Below, piece by piece: positions 23,587 to 29,829 of a stretch of DNA of 64,000 bases. The stretch spans positions 248,001-312,000 of the forward strand of contig JAJYYH010000036.1 of the NCBI GenBank assembly GCA_021801255.1, read 5' to 3'. The stretch is from Pseudomonadota bacterium (GTDB lineage: Bacteria; Pseudomonadota; Alphaproteobacteria; Acetobacterales; Acetobacteraceae). Under the pieces are notes generated by a model. That model made no database searches. It was not told where the DNA came from and saw nothing but the letters and a program-made list of their open reading frames with translations. Within the stretch, counting starts at the first letter, position 1, and every line of letters begins with the position of its first letter. The position numbers and the translations under genes were made by a program.

Positions 23587-24180
23587 GTGACGGAACGTGA
23601 CGGGTGTCGGGTGTGGAACATGAAATGGCGGCGGCGGCGCATGGTCGGAGGAGGCTTGGCGCTCGCCGCGGGTCTCGCCACCGGTCTCGCCCCGGGCGCG
23701 CGCGCCGAGGATCCGAGCGAGATGCCGCCGCAGCCGGGCGATCGGCTGGTGTTTCTCACCGGGCCCAAGAAGGGCACGGCGATCAAGCCCGATGACCTGC
23801 CGCTCGGCGGCCCACAGGCCCAGGCCTATCCGGCGAGCCCGGAGGGCGTGCTGCGTGAGGGCTCGCGGCTCAATTTGCTGATCGTCGCGCGTTTCGACCC
23901 GGCACAGCTCGCCCCCGAGACGCTGGCGCGGGCGACGGATGGCGTTGTCGCCTATTCCGGCGTTTGCACCCATCAGGCCTGCCCGGTGAATGCGTGGTCG
24001 GACGAGCAGAAGATGGCGGTCTGTTCGTGTCATGGTTCGACCTACGATTTGCGCGATGGCGCGAAACTGGTGTTCGGGCCAGCGCCGCACGCGCTCGCGG
24101 CATTGCCGCTCAAGCGCGCTGATGACGTCCTGGTGGTCGCCGACAAATTCACCCGCCATGTCGGCGGGGAGATGATGTGA
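23587..24180 (+). CDS. Exported Rieske [2Fe-2S] protein
   Basis: This is a small Rieske electron-transfer protein. Counting from the GTG at 23587, cluster ligands are Cys127 and His129 (CTH) and Cys146 and His149 (CSCH), with Cys132 and Cys148 placed for the disulfide typical of high-potential bc1-type Rieske proteins. A Tat-like signal RRRRMVGGG precedes an Ala/Gly/Leu segment and AGARA cleavage site near residue 40. An ATG at 23620 would give 186 residues and keep the signal. No cytochrome b or c1 gene is adjacent; the next gene is a PQQ dehydrogenase, for which it may be an electron acceptor (inference). Confidence 0.85.
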   Translation: MTERDGCRVWNMKWRRRRMVGGGLALAAGLATGLAPGARAEDPSEMPPQPGDRLVFLTGPKKGTAIKPDDLPLGGPQAQAYPASPEGVLREGSRLNLLIVARFDPAQLAPETLARATDGVVAYSGVCTHQACPVNAWSDEQKMAVCSCHGSTYDLRDGAKLVFGPAPHALAALPLKRADDVLVVADKFTRHVGGEMM

Positions 24181-24253: not shown

Positions 24254-25972
24254 ATGCGTGGATTGCTGAGTGGCACATGCCTGGCCGCCTTGCTGGCGGC
24301 CGGTCTGGTGGGCGCCGCCCACAGCGCGGACTACGCACCGGTGACCGATTCCCGCCTCGATAATCCGGAGCCGGAAAACTGGCTGATGACGCGCGGCACC
24401 TATAAGGGCTGGAGCTACAGCCCGCTGGACCAGATCAACACCAGCAATGTCAGGAATCTGGTGCCGGTCTGGAGTGTCGCGACCGGCGTTGATTCCGGGC
24501 ACGAGGCCCCGCCGATCGTCAATAACGGGGTGATGTTCGTCAGCACGCCCTATGCCCAGGTGATGGCGCTGGACGCGGCGAGCGGCGACCTCCTGTGGCG
24601 CTACAAGCGCAAGCTGCCCGAGGGTTTCAGCGCGCTGCACAACACCAATCGCGGCGTCGCCCTCTATGGCGACAAGGTCTATCTCGCCGGTCTCGATGCC
24701 GTGCTCGTGGCGCTCGATGCGCGCACCGGCAAGGTGGTCTGGGAGACCAAGGTCGGGGACTGGAAGGACGGCTATTACATGACCATGGCGCCCCTCGTGG
24801 TGAAGGGCAAGATCCTGGTCGGTGTCGCCGGCGGCGAGTTCGGCGTGCGCGGCTTCGTCGAGGCGTTCGACGCCGAAACCGGCAAATCGGCCTGGAAGAC
24901 CTACTCGATCCCGGCGCCCGGCGAGCCCGGCAGCGATACCTGGCAGAAGCCCGACACCTGGAAGACCGGTGGGGCGAGCACCTGGATGACCGGCAATTAT
25001 GATGTCGCGTCGAACACCGTCTATTGGGGCACCGGCAACGGCTCGCCCTGGTTCGGCGACCAGCGGCCGGGCGATAATCTCTATACCTCCTCGACGCTGG
25101 CGCTCGATGGCGACAGCGGCAAGCTCATCGGCCATTTCCAGTATCAGCAGAACGAGGACTGGGACTGGGATGCGATGAACGCGCCGATGCTGGTCGATTT
25201 CCAGCATAATGGCACGACCATCCCCGGTCTGCTCACGCCGCAGCGCAATGGCTATCTCTATTGGCTTGAGCGCGAGCCCAATGGCGGCATCAAATATCTC
25301 AACGCCGTCGCCTATGTGCCGCAGAATGTCTTCAAGAGCATCGACGCCACGACCGGCCGCCCGGTCATCGACATGGACCACAAGCCGGGGACCGGCAAGA
25401 TGGCGCAGTTCTGCCCCGGCCTCTGGGGCGGCAAGGACTGGCCCTATGAATCCTACAGCCCGAAGACCGGCATGGTCTATATCCCGGCCAACGAGAACCA
25501 CTGCAACAAGTTCGAGGGCAAGGTCGAGGAGCGCGTTCCCGGCCAGTGGTGGACGGGTGTCGCGGTGCCGGATTTCCACTTCAGCGTCGATACCAAGGCC
25601 GGGTTCTATGGCGAGATCAAGACCTATGACGTGAACACCGGCGCGCCCGGCTGGCGGCAGCTCTATTCCCGCTCGATGATGTGGGGTTCGCTGCTGACCA
25701 CGGGGGGCAATCTGGTGTTCGGCGGCGGCACCAACGACCGCGAATTCCGCGCCTATAATGCCTCGACCGGCGAGGAACTTTGGCACTTCAAGACCAATTC
25801 GGGGATCATCGCCCCGCCCTCGTCCTTCGCGGTCAATGGCGTGCAATATATCGCGGTGCAGTCGGGCTATGGCGTCGATGCCGCGTTCCAGGAGCAGCTT
25901 TTGAGCGAGCTGGTCGGCTGGCAGGCGGACGTGCCCCAGGGCGGCGTGGTTTGGGTCTTCGCCGTTCGCTGA
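24254..25972 (+). CDS. PQQ-dependent alcohol dehydrogenase, probable lanthanide type
   Basis: This is a periplasmic quinoprotein of 572 residues with signal peptide cleaved near HSA-DYA. Eight-bladed propeller W-motifs are visible, such as LDAASGDLLWRY, LDARTGKVVWET and FDAETGKSAWKT. The catalytic Asp304 lies in EDWDWDAMN, and Asp306 two residues later is the extra aspartate that marks lanthanide-binding XoxF-type enzymes. Metal-site residues Glu195 (GGEFG) and Asn262 (GTGNG) are present. The vicinal cysteine pair normally just before the NRGVA motif is absent; HNTNRGVA is found instead. The product is shorter than XoxF (about 600) and has no cytochrome domain, so an external acceptor is needed. 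Substrate is unknown. Confidence 0.9.
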   Translation: MRGLLSGTCLAALLAAGLVGAAHSADYAPVTDSRLDNPEPENWLMTRGTYKGWSYSPLDQINTSNVRNLVPVWSVATGVDSGHEAPPIVNNGVMFVSTPYAQVMALDAASGDLLWRYKRKLPEGFSALHNTNRGVALYGDKVYLAGLDAVLVALDARTGKVVWETKVGDWKDGYYMTMAPLVVKGKILVGVAGGEFGVRGFVEAFDAETGKSAWKTYSIPAPGEPGSDTWQKPDTWKTGGASTWMTGNYDVASNTVYWGTGNGSPWFGDQRPGDNLYTSSTLALDGDSGKLIGHFQYQQNEDWDWDAMNAPMLVDFQHNGTTIPGLLTPQRNGYLYWLEREPNGGIKYLNAVAYVPQNVFKSIDATTGRPVIDMDHKPGTGKMAQFCPGLWGGKDWPYESYSPKTGMVYIPANENHCNKFEGKVEERVPGQWWTGVAVPDFHFSVDTKAGFYGEIKTYDVNTGAPGWRQLYSRSMMWGSLLTTGGNLVFGGGTNDREFRAYNASTGEELWHFKTNSGIIAPPSSFAVNGVQYIAVQSGYGVDAAFQEQLLSELVGWQADVPQGGVVWVFAVR

Positions 25973-26077
25973 GCAACCGAGCCGCGCTTCGGCGCGGGAA
26001 ATTTCCGGGGCCAACCGCCAGTGCTGGCGGTTGGCCGCCCTTATCACGCCGTTCCCCGACAATTTCAGGACGAGACA

Positions 26078-26554
26078 ATGCCGCGACGCGTGCGACCGAC
26101 CCAATTCCTGCCCTGGCTTGGCGCTATCCTGCTCGTCTCCGCCGCGCTGGCGACGCTCGGTGGCCCCGGTGGCGCGCCGGCTCTGGCGGAGACCGGAACC
26201 GCTCAACCGGCGGGCGCCTATAGTATCGAGGTCAGCGATGTCACCGCCAAGGTCGGAGCCCATACGGTGCTCCGCGCGACGCTCAGGCCGCGCGAGGGCT
26301 ACCGCATTCTCAAAGCCTATAACAACCACGTTGGCCAGCTTTCTTCCCTCGACGACGGGGTTGCCTTCGACCACAAGATGTTCAGCGCGACCCTGGTCGA
26401 TGGCGCGCTGGTCTTCGAGGTCGGGCTGGCGGCGACCAAGCCGGGCAAGCACCCGATCAATGGCGTGTTTCGCGTGGGCTATATCCAGGACAGCGCGGAC
26501 GACATGGCGATGGTCTCGCTGCCGCTGATCGCCAATGTCACGGGCACGCCGTAA
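26078..26554 (+). CDS. Secreted protein of unknown function beside the PQQ dehydrogenase
   Basis: This is a 158-residue protein with a basic N-terminus (MPRRVRPTQ), a hydrophobic signal or anchor segment (about residues 12-38) and a beta-rich domain of about 100 residues containing AKVGAHTVLRATLRPREGY and a final VSLPLIANVTGT. I do not recognise the family; the pattern suggests an immunoglobulin-like fold. It is 105 bases after the dehydrogenase on the same strand, so it probably serves the same periplasmic pathway. The ATG at 26078 is preferred over an upstream in-frame ATG at 26021 because it restores a proper signal sequence. Confidence 0.6.
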   Translation: MPRRVRPTQFLPWLGAILLVSAALATLGGPGGAPALAETGTAQPAGAYSIEVSDVTAKVGAHTVLRATLRPREGYRILKAYNNHVGQLSSLDDGVAFDHKMFSATLVDGALVFEVGLAATKPGKHPINGVFRVGYIQDSADDMAMVSLPLIANVTGTP

Positions 26555-27074
26555 CGCTGCCCGCCTGGGCGCCGCTTGCCTGGGCGCCGTTGAGCCGGAG
26601 GCTGGTGCCGGTGGATCGGGGGTTGCCGAACATTGCCGGCAAGTTACGTTCATGACGCGCCCGGCTTTCCAAGACCAGCCCGTGGCGAAAAAGCGATCGC
26701 CGGCGAAACGGGATCGTTTTTCACCTGTTCCGGAGAGGATGAGCCGTAATATACATAAATATATAACCGGAAATTCTGCGGTCTGGCGCGGGGCGCTGCT
26801 GCGCGCGACTGTCTTCTTGATAAAACCCCGATTGACAGCGCGCCGGCGTTGTCGTCAAGTATTTGTGGGGAGGAGATGAAGACCGCCGAACGCGAGACAT
26901 GACCGCGGAAATCTAGCAAGCTCCCGTTTTCCGCGGCACACGCCCAAGATATCGCGCCGATGGGTCTCGCGTCTCCCTACCGCGGATGGACGCATCATAA
27001 ACGAAAACTTGATCCGGGAGGATCGATGGCCGGCAACGGCCGAAAATTTTTTCACAGTGTCGAGGAGAAGTTCC
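26555..27074. other. Intergenic region upstream of the molybdenum hydroxylase genes
   Basis: The 520 bases have an AT-rich patch (26745-26780, TAATATACATAAATATATAAC) and a -35-like TTGACA at 26832-26837 with a weak AAGTAT-type -10. After it, GGGGAGGAG precedes an ATG at 26876 that opens only an 8-codon frame. No conserved gene is visible. The promoter for the following two genes should lie here. Confidence 0.45.
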
Positions 27075-27527
27075 ATGATCACGCTCAGCGTGAACGGACA
27101 GCAGCACAGCTATGACGGTGATCCGTCGCTGCCGCTGCTGTGGTTTCTGCGCGACGAGGCCGGTCTGCCCGGCACCAAATATGGCTGTGGCGAGGCGCTT
27201 TGCGGCGCCTGCACGGTGCATCTCAACGGTGAGGCGGTGCGGTCCTGCGCGGTGCAGGTCGCTGACGCCGCGGGCAAGAACGTGGTGACCATCGAGGGGC
27301 TTGACCCGCACGGCAACCACCCGGTGCAGCGCGCTTGGCGCGCCGTGAACGTGCCGCAATGCGGCTTCTGCCAGGCCGGCCAGATCATGCAGGCGGCGGC
27401 CTTGCTTGCCACGACGCCGAACCCGACCGATGCCCAGATCCATACGGCGATGGCCGGTAATATCTGCCGTTGCGGTTGCTATCAGCGCATCGAATCGGCG
27501 ATCCGCACCGCAGCCACGGGAGTGTGA
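27075..27527 (+). CDS. iorA: Molybdenum hydroxylase [2Fe-2S] subunit (isoquinoline 1-oxidoreductase alpha type)
   Basis: This 150-residue small subunit carries two [2Fe-2S] clusters. The plant-ferredoxin-type cluster is at [14 protein letters not shown], and the second is formed by CGFCQAGQ and [11 protein letters not shown]. It passes electrons from the molybdopterin subunit to an external acceptor. The ATG at 27075 follows GAGGAG and gives the family start [10 protein letters not shown]. It is two bases upstream of its large subunit. The gene symbol follows the closest named family; the actual substrate may be another N-heterocycle or an aldehyde. Confidence 0.9.
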
Positions 27528-27528
27528 T

Positions 27529-29829
27529 ATGACACATATCGAGAAGAATTCCCTGCCGCTCGTGGAGAATGTCAGCCGTCGCGGCCTGCTCAAGGGCGTG
27601 GTCGCTTCCGGCAGCCTGATTGTCGCCACGACCTATCTGCCCAAACGCGCCATGGCCGCCTGGGCGACCGGGGCCGGGTTGATGCCGCATGGCACGGTGA
27701 GCGACCCGCACGTCTTCGTCGCCATCGCCAAGGACGGCACCGTGACCATCGTTGCGCATCGCTCCGAGATGGGTACCGGCTCGAAAACCAGTCTGCCGAT
27801 GGTGGTGGCCGACGAAATGGGCGCCGATTGGAGCCGCTGCCGCGTCGTGCAGGCCCCCGGCGATGAGGTGAAATACGGCAACCAGGACACCGACGGCTCG
27901 CGCAGCCTGCGCCATTTCGTCCAGCCGATGCGCCAATGCGGTGCCGCCGCGCGCCTGATGCTGGAAATGGCCGCGGCCGAGCGCTGGGGCGTCGATGTCA
28001 GCTCCGTCGAGGCCGTCGATCATGCCGTCGTGCATCGCGATTCCGGCCGGCGTCTCGGCTTTGGCGACCTCGCCGAGGCGGCCGCCGCGCTGCCAACCCC
28101 GGCACCCGACAAGATCCGCCTCAAGGACACCAACTCCTTCCGCTATATCGGCACCGGCTCGGTGCCAATCGTCGATCTCTTCGGCATCACCACCGGCACC
28201 GCGACCTATGGCGCCGATATCCGCTTGCCGGGGATGAAATACGCGGTGATCGCGCGCCCGCCGGTGCTCGGCGCCAAGGTCAAATCCTTCGACGGCTCGG
28301 CGGCGCTGAAGGTGCCGGGCGTCGAGAAGGTCGTCGAGGTCCAGGGCTGGGACTGGCCGGCGAAATTCCAGCCAGTGGGCGGTGTCGCGGTGATCGCGCG
28401 CAACACGGGCGTCGCCATTAAGGGCCGCGATGCGCTCAAGATCACCTGGACCGACAGCCCACACGCCGTCTATAATTCCGACAGCTATCGCGAGATGCTG
28501 CTCGAGAACGCGCGCAAGCCGGGCAAGACGGTGCGCAATGACGGCGATATCGACGGCGCGATGAAAGCCGCCGCCAAGACCATCACCGCCGAATACTACA
28601 TCCCGCAATCCGCCCATGCCCCGATGGAGCCGCCCGCTGCCACCGCTTGGGTGCATGACGGCATGTGCGAGGTCTGGGCGCCGGTGCAGAGCCCCGGCGG
28701 CACGCATGACGATCTGATGAAAACCCTTGGCCTTCCCTACGACAAAGTGAAGGTGAACGTGACGCTCTTGGGTGGCGCGTTCGGGCGCAAGTCGAAATGC
28801 GATTTCGTGCTCGAGGCCGCCCTGCTCTCGAAAACCCTGAACGCGCCGGTGCGCGTGCAGTGGACGCGAGAAGACGACATCCAGCACGATTTCTACCATG
28901 CCGTCGCGGTGGAACGGATCGAGGCGGCGCTGGACGCCAACAACAAGGTGATCGGCTGGCGCCATCGCAACGCCGCGCCCTCGCTGTTCTCCACCTTCAT
29001 GCCCGATCCGAAAATGCAGCAGCCGCTGGAATACAGCATGGGCCAGGTCGATCTGCCCTTCGCGATCGAGAATATCCGCTGCGAGGTCTGCGAGGCGCCG
29101 GCGCATTCGCGCATCGGCTGGTTCCGCTCGGTGCGCAACGTGCCCAACACCTTCGCCACGCAGTCTTTCGTGGCCGAACTCGCGCACGCGACGGGGCGCG
29201 ATCCGAAGGATATGCTGCTCGAATTGATCGGCGCCCCGCGCATCGTCGATCCGCGCAAGACCACCGTCGATCTGTGGAACTATGGCGATCCCTTCGAGAC
29301 CTATCCGATCGATACCGGGCGCCTGCGCGGCGTCGTCGAACTGGTCGCCGAGAAAGCCGGCTGGGGCCGCGATCTCCCTGCCGGGCATGGCATGGGTATC
29401 GCGGTGCAGCGCAGCTTCCTGAGCTACATCGCGACCGTCGTCGAGGTTGCCGTCGATGGCAAGGGCAATATCTCGGTCCCGCGCGTCGATACCGCCGTCG
29501 ATTGCGGCTTCCATGTCAACCCCGAACGCATCACCTCGCAGATCGAAGGGGCTGCGATCATGGGCCTCGGTATCGCCAAACATTGCGAGATCACCTACAA
29601 GAACGGCGTCGTGCAGCAATCGAACTTCAACGACTATCAGGTCGTGCGCATCGACGAGGCGCCACGGGTGACGAATGTCTATATCGTGCCGGCTGGCTGG
29701 GACACGCCCTCCAGCGGGGTCGGCGAGCCGGGCACACCGCCCTTCGCGCCGGCGCTCTGCAATGCGATCTTCGCCGCGACCGGCAAGCGCATCCGCAACC
29801 TGCCGATCGGCGATCAGCTCGCGATCTGA
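27529..29829 (+). CDS. iorB: Molybdopterin-binding large subunit (isoquinoline 1-oxidoreductase beta / aldehyde dehydrogenase type)
   Basis: This 766-residue catalytic subunit of the xanthine-dehydrogenase superfamily starts with a Tat signal (SRRGLLKG, then a hydrophobic stretch and AMA), so the heterodimer is exported folded. Molybdopterin-binding signatures include GGAFGRK near residue 417 and the C-terminal [14 protein letters not shown] with the catalytic Glu. There is no FAD subunit, as in IorAB-type enzymes that donate to periplasmic cytochromes. The start ATG at 27529 overlaps the region just after the iorA stop. A strong terminator follows at 29853. Confidence 0.9.

Follow-up and report, generated by a model that had tools for sequence, protein, structure and literature searches.

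The gene at positions 24254-25972 of the window (the whole stretch of 64,000 nucleotides that was analysed) encodes a member of a named, uncharacterized type of PQQ-dependent alcohol dehydrogenase (PQQ-ADH) with a lanthanide-type metal site. The loss of the vicinal disulfide is a trait of the entire clade to which this enzyme belongs, and the surprising and most distinctive feature is a dedicated Rieske partner, which is undescribed as far as the literature searched shows. It is reasonably probable that the protein is an alcohol dehydrogenase of the lanthanide type, the electrons of which go to a dedicated high-potential Rieske protein and the aldehyde product of which goes to a periplasmic Mo-aldehyde dehydrogenase; in this reading, the features of the sequence, the clade, the Asp/Ala split and the linkage of the genes are observed, and we infer the identity of the metal, the electron route, the class of the substrate and the role of H129. 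The genes involved are the following:

23587-24180, plus strand: Rieske [2Fe-2S] protein, probable ATG start at 23620, Tat-like motif RRRRMVGG, boxes CTHQAC...CSCHGSTY; PF00355 above the cut-off.
24254-25972, plus strand: PQQ alcohol dehydrogenase, 572 amino acids, ATG start, Sec-type signal; ligands E195, N262, D304 and D306; H129-N-T where the disulfide motif is expected.
26021-26554, plus strand: small exported protein with a predicted beta-sandwich fold, probable start at 26078; no Pfam or NCBIfam match.
27009-27527, plus strand: [2Fe-2S] subunit of a Mo-hydroxylase-type aldehyde dehydrogenase, probable start at 27075; PF01799, PF00111; adjoins the dehydrogenase in many loci of the clade.
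27406-29829, plus strand: Mo-cofactor subunit of the aldehyde dehydrogenase, probable start at 27529, Tat motif SRRGLLKG; PF20256, PF02738; likewise adjoins the dehydrogenase in many loci of the clade.

The dehydrogenase belongs to the methanol/ethanol family of PQQ dehydrogenases and, in an NCBIfam profile search, passes the cut-off of TIGR03075 (554.8 versus 480.05 bits). The best fold match of its AlphaFold model (pLDDT 87.8 and pTM 0.90, with an average of about 72 for residues 301-310, and with neither PQQ nor metal in the model) is PedH (TM 0.88), and structural alignment shows that PedH and XoxF share the fold at 34-35% identity. The sequence criterion for a lanthanide-type site comprises the Glu and Asn ligands and the second Asp of D-x-D, all of which are present; the D304-W-D306 signature singled out in the sequence-only reading of this DNA is numbered correctly, with EDWDWDAMN spanning residues 301-309. 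The vicinal Cys-Cys expected of XoxF/MxaF is absent, as that reading had noticed, but its wording that the pair is replaced by HN is slightly off: in an ungapped comparison with the quinohemoprotein ADH 1kv9 (CCDAVNRG), the two cysteines fall on A127-L128 and H129 is aligned with the Asp that follows the pair, and in the HMMER alignment to PedH, the dehydrogenase comes out one residue shorter. The change is better described as the loss of the Cys pair with a conserved His at position -3 from NRG. The enzyme is also shorter than XoxF (572 versus about 600 amino acids), which had been correctly pointed out but is not informative, as short sequences are also found in PedH and the sorbose-type enzymes.

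The motif pattern is not due to chance because H129, T131, R133, E195, N262, D304 and R331 are invariant among 38 aligned members of the clade, which lack the Cys pair and conserve H129-x-T-x-R-G. A scan of public genomes retained 80 loci, from Pseudomonadota, Acidobacteriota, Rokuibacteriota and Binatota, and plasmid records contributed further loci, including an outlier from Deinococcus. A tree of 123 proteins unites the relatives without the disulfide in a single branch of 87 rows (SH-aLRT 99), separate from XoxF/MxaF, PedH, the quinohemoprotein ADHs and the membrane glucose dehydrogenases (mGDH), and the same clade was recovered at 100/99 in a 60-row tree with the metal site masked. The phylogeny that had been called for, with XoxF, MxaF and PedH/ExaF, thus places the dehydrogenase outside all these branches. 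Of the distinct lanthanide quinoprotein clade that had been conjectured, the separate branch is well supported in two trees; the clade is not purely lanthanide-type because a derived subclade carries Ala, and it is already named, as PQQ-ADH type 6a. The dehydrogenase groups with the type 6a members Adh6 and Adh4 of Methylobacterium aquaticum 22A, one of which, with Ala (L119/L142), is inside the clade tree, whereas the other, with Asp (L143), is 55% identical and has the HPT and WDWD motifs. The clade, then, is not new; the literature so far says little about its loss of the disulfide and its split by metal type. Tandem or repeated PQQ-ADH genes, or Rieske and PQQ-ADH pairs, occur at three loci in Methyloligella and Bradyrhizobium (L082, L100 and L118).

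Plasmid 1p of Methylobacterium aquaticum 22A encodes two clade members, one with WDWA at 144 kb and one with WDWD at 449 kb, each with a Rieske gene upstream; gene order and residue 301 indicate that the 144-kb Ala member is probably 1p30675 and the 449-kb Asp member 1p32165. In RNA-seq, 1p30675, with Ala301, was repressed by La3+, and on methanol, La3+ had no clear effect on 1p32165, which is of the Asp type (Masuda et al. 2018; PMC5784242). Both have been classified as PQQ-ADH type 6a, 1p32165 as Adh4 and 1p30675 as Adh6, and described as having ‘not been characterized' (Yanpirat et al. 2020; PMC7356819). No biochemistry was found for any member of the clade in the literature searched. The loss of the Cys pair is mentioned in passing by Alessa et al. 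2021, who report that the pair is absent from certain minor representatives of types 6a, 2a and 2b (PMC8561711), a wording that implies that other type 6a members keep it, so that the clade and type 6a might not coincide exactly.

The only metal ligand that varies in the clade is D306, which is exchanged exclusively for Ala. All rows with Ala, of which the large tree has 24, cluster in a single nested clade (100/100, with the site masked), which requires one Asp-to-Ala change, so that the simplest reading is that Asp (lanthanide-type) is ancestral and Ala (calcium-type) is derived. Lanthanide-type is the best reading of the dehydrogenase encoded in the window because none of the four metal ligands is missing and Asp and Ala replace one another on the same scaffold. 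There is counter-evidence in that D-x-D, in the form of WDMD, is also found in membrane glucose dehydrogenase (L033/L034), so that D-x-D alone is no proof of lanthanide use. All eight PQQ-ADHs found in the 3.2-Mb genome from which the window derives (L124-L130 and the dehydrogenase itself) have the second Asp of D-x-D, with no calcium-type (Ala) enzyme among them, and pqqE is present twice in this genome.

The Rieske gene is located immediately upstream of the dehydrogenase gene, outside the coordinates of the sequence-only reading, which had missed it. The best solved relative of its product, over the whole domain, is the Rieske protein of T. thermophilus (1nyk/3fou), and the product contains the CxHxxC and CxCHxS boxes together with an extra Cys pair, both members of which are present in nearly all loci of the clade. 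The second box is followed by Ser and Tyr (CSCHGSTY), which, along with the extra disulfide cysteines, are features of high-potential Rieske proteins. A same-strand Rieske gene is found within 1.6 kb of the dehydrogenase in 89 of the 92 clade loci (three of the 92 are second copies from the same genomes, so that the count of distinct loci is 86 of 89), and in 83 of the 89 linked loci, it lies upstream, with a median gap of 115 bp. The three exceptions are a locus where the Rieske gene precedes a tandem second copy (L082) and two loci close to contig ends (L094 and L115). None of 25 loci of other PQQ-ADHs has a Rieske neighbour, with the proviso that 15 of these were searched with a flank of only about 1.5 kb; the 25 include all seven other PQQ-ADHs of the genome from which the window derives, for which wider flanks were searched, and this genome has only four Rieske matches in total. 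The adjacency across several phyla suggests an unusual electron route, and no paper linking a Rieske protein to a PQQ-ADH was found in the literature searched, the coverage of which was partial.

The outlier on a plasmid of Deinococcus aetherius (L132) is a PQQ-ADH with 45% identity that carries the Cys pair and WDYD; a Rieske gene directly precedes it. The Rieske linkage seems to be older than the disulfide loss, and the two were not one event because this locus has the Rieske gene yet retains the Cys pair. Two paralogs in the genome under study (L127 and L129) have no Cys-Cys (the motifs are THSPYNRG and GNDLTKRN), possess D-x-D and have no Rieske neighbour. A causal tie between the loss of the pair and the Rieske partner was considered and rejected, given that L132 has both the Rieske neighbour and the Cys pair, whereas L127 and L129 have neither of these.

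Downstream of the dehydrogenase, homologs of the small beta-sandwich protein are encoded in about 27 clade loci and share a few invariant Gly/His residues; its model has a pLDDT of 86, and the structure search yields only weak Ig/DsbD-alpha-like matches, which point to no function. A Mo-aldehyde dehydrogenase or aldA adjoins the dehydrogenase in most loci of the clade. The possibility that the aldehyde partner is tied to the metal type, with Ala members often next to aldA and Asp members often next to the Mo enzyme, was discarded because the pattern is confounded by ancestry and has exceptions, namely, Hyphomicrobium (Ala with Mo) and Azoarcus KH32C and Neptuniibacter (Asp with aldA). On the Alteromonas plasmid pTE101a (L120), the cluster additionally includes an FG-GAP protein, an alpha-hydroxy acid oxidase and a TonB receptor, a possible hint at the substrate.

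Under the scenario considered here, the type 6a dehydrogenase would use E195, N262, D304 and D306 to bind PQQ and a lanthanide and would oxidize a primary alcohol in the periplasm to an aldehyde, with D304 as the likely catalytic base. H129 would occupy the place next to the absent disulfide, as a His does in membrane glucose dehydrogenase. The reduced PQQ would be re-oxidized in one-electron steps by the Tat-exported Rieske protein rather than by cytochrome c, and the Mo/[2Fe-2S] aldehyde dehydrogenase encoded downstream, likewise Tat-exported, would convert the aldehyde to the acid. For the broader claim, that the whole clade, in several phyla and in both lanthanide and calcium versions, donates electrons to a dedicated Rieske protein instead of cytochrome c and does so without the vicinal disulfide, the chances appear to be even.

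Cytochrome c is the electron acceptor of the familiar soluble PQQ-ADHs, and it is possible, albeit unlikely, that an ordinary cytochrome c accepts the electrons of this dehydrogenase as well, with the Rieske protein serving, for example, the re-oxidation of the Mo-aldehyde dehydrogenase or a connection to a bc1-type complex. Such an acceptor could be a soluble cytochrome c encoded elsewhere, and no cytochrome subunit was found beside the Mo-aldehyde dehydrogenase of the window. However, the Rieske gene persists next to the dehydrogenase where the aldehyde gene is a cytosolic-type aldA, where no aldehyde gene was found and in Deinococcus; its upstream position and short gap recur across the linked loci, and in the annotated clusters, no cytochrome b or c gene lies directly next to the pair. 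Less probable still is that the dehydrogenase uses calcium or magnesium and that D306 is immaterial, as in membrane glucose dehydrogenase, the paralogs of which share the His column and WDMD and lack the Cys pair: the dehydrogenase retains the ADH ligands E195 and N262, which mGDH does not, and the clade displays the Asp/Ala exchange known to divide lanthanide from calcium enzymes, with an Ala member that is repressed by La3+.

The common fold and the 34-35% identity with PedH and XoxF would fit an enzyme of the usual ExaF/PedH or XoxF kind in which nothing but the disulfide has drifted, but the separate, well-supported branch, the invariant replacement His and the different partner gene make this very improbable. 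Hardly credible, finally, is a non-catalytic or PQQ-free quinoprotein, such as those of the ‘acido-empty-quinoprotein' family: TIGR04528 is the second-best NCBIfam match, but it scores 364.6 bits against a cut-off of 650, whereas TIGR03075 exceeds its own cut-off, and the clade shows no variation in the catalytic D304, in R331 or in the E195/N262 ligands. A Rieske acceptor, if borne out, would mean that soluble quinoprotein alcohol dehydrogenases have a different route for their electrons in a clade that occurs in common soil and plant-associated genera, such as Bradyrhizobium, Methylobacterium and Hyphomicrobium. The clade also provides a clean second case, beside XoxF/MxaF, of the passage from a lanthanide to a calcium site by a single Asp-to-Ala change on an otherwise constant scaffold, and it allows one to ask about the role of the vicinal disulfide because the other active-site residues are retained.

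Among the known systems, PedH/ExaF (type 2b) have in common with the dehydrogenase the D-x-D motif, the Glu and Asn ligands and the fold, but possess the Cys pair and belong to a separate branch, and a PedH-like locus in Azospirillum includes the cytochrome c550 PedF and accessory genes, not a Rieske gene. XoxF, of which the genome under study encodes an XoxF5 elsewhere (L128), similarly shares D-x-D and the metal ligands but has the Cys pair, is longer and forms its own branch. Membrane glucose dehydrogenase (TIGR03074) has a His in the column of H129 (FQHLTCRG), D-x-D and no Cys pair; it differs in its membrane domain and other metal ligands and is remote in the tree. The dehydrogenase falls short of the TIGR03074 cut-off (182 versus 832.65 bits), and its signal peptide is followed by the propeller, which leaves no room for an N-terminal membrane domain. 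Quinoproteins of marine heterotrophic Thaumarchaeota have been reported to lack the Cys pair, with some keeping DYD or DXD (PMC7300363); these are archaeal and divergent, and the likeness is by description only. The missing disulfide combined with D-x-D is therefore not unique, being found in these proteins as well as in L127 and L129. The solved soluble PQQ dehydrogenases 4cvb, 7wmd, 4mh1 and 9m2c are relatives of high fold similarity on a neighbouring branch that has weaker support in the large tree; 4cvb and 9m2c resemble the dehydrogenase in lacking the Cys pair but have another replacement motif and D-x-E rather than D-x-D. Adh4 and Adh6 of M. aquaticum 22A belong to the same clade, are 55-58% identical to the dehydrogenase and, like it, lack the Cys pair, contain H-x-T and have the Rieske gene upstream; Adh6 has Ala (calcium-type) where the dehydrogenase has Asp.
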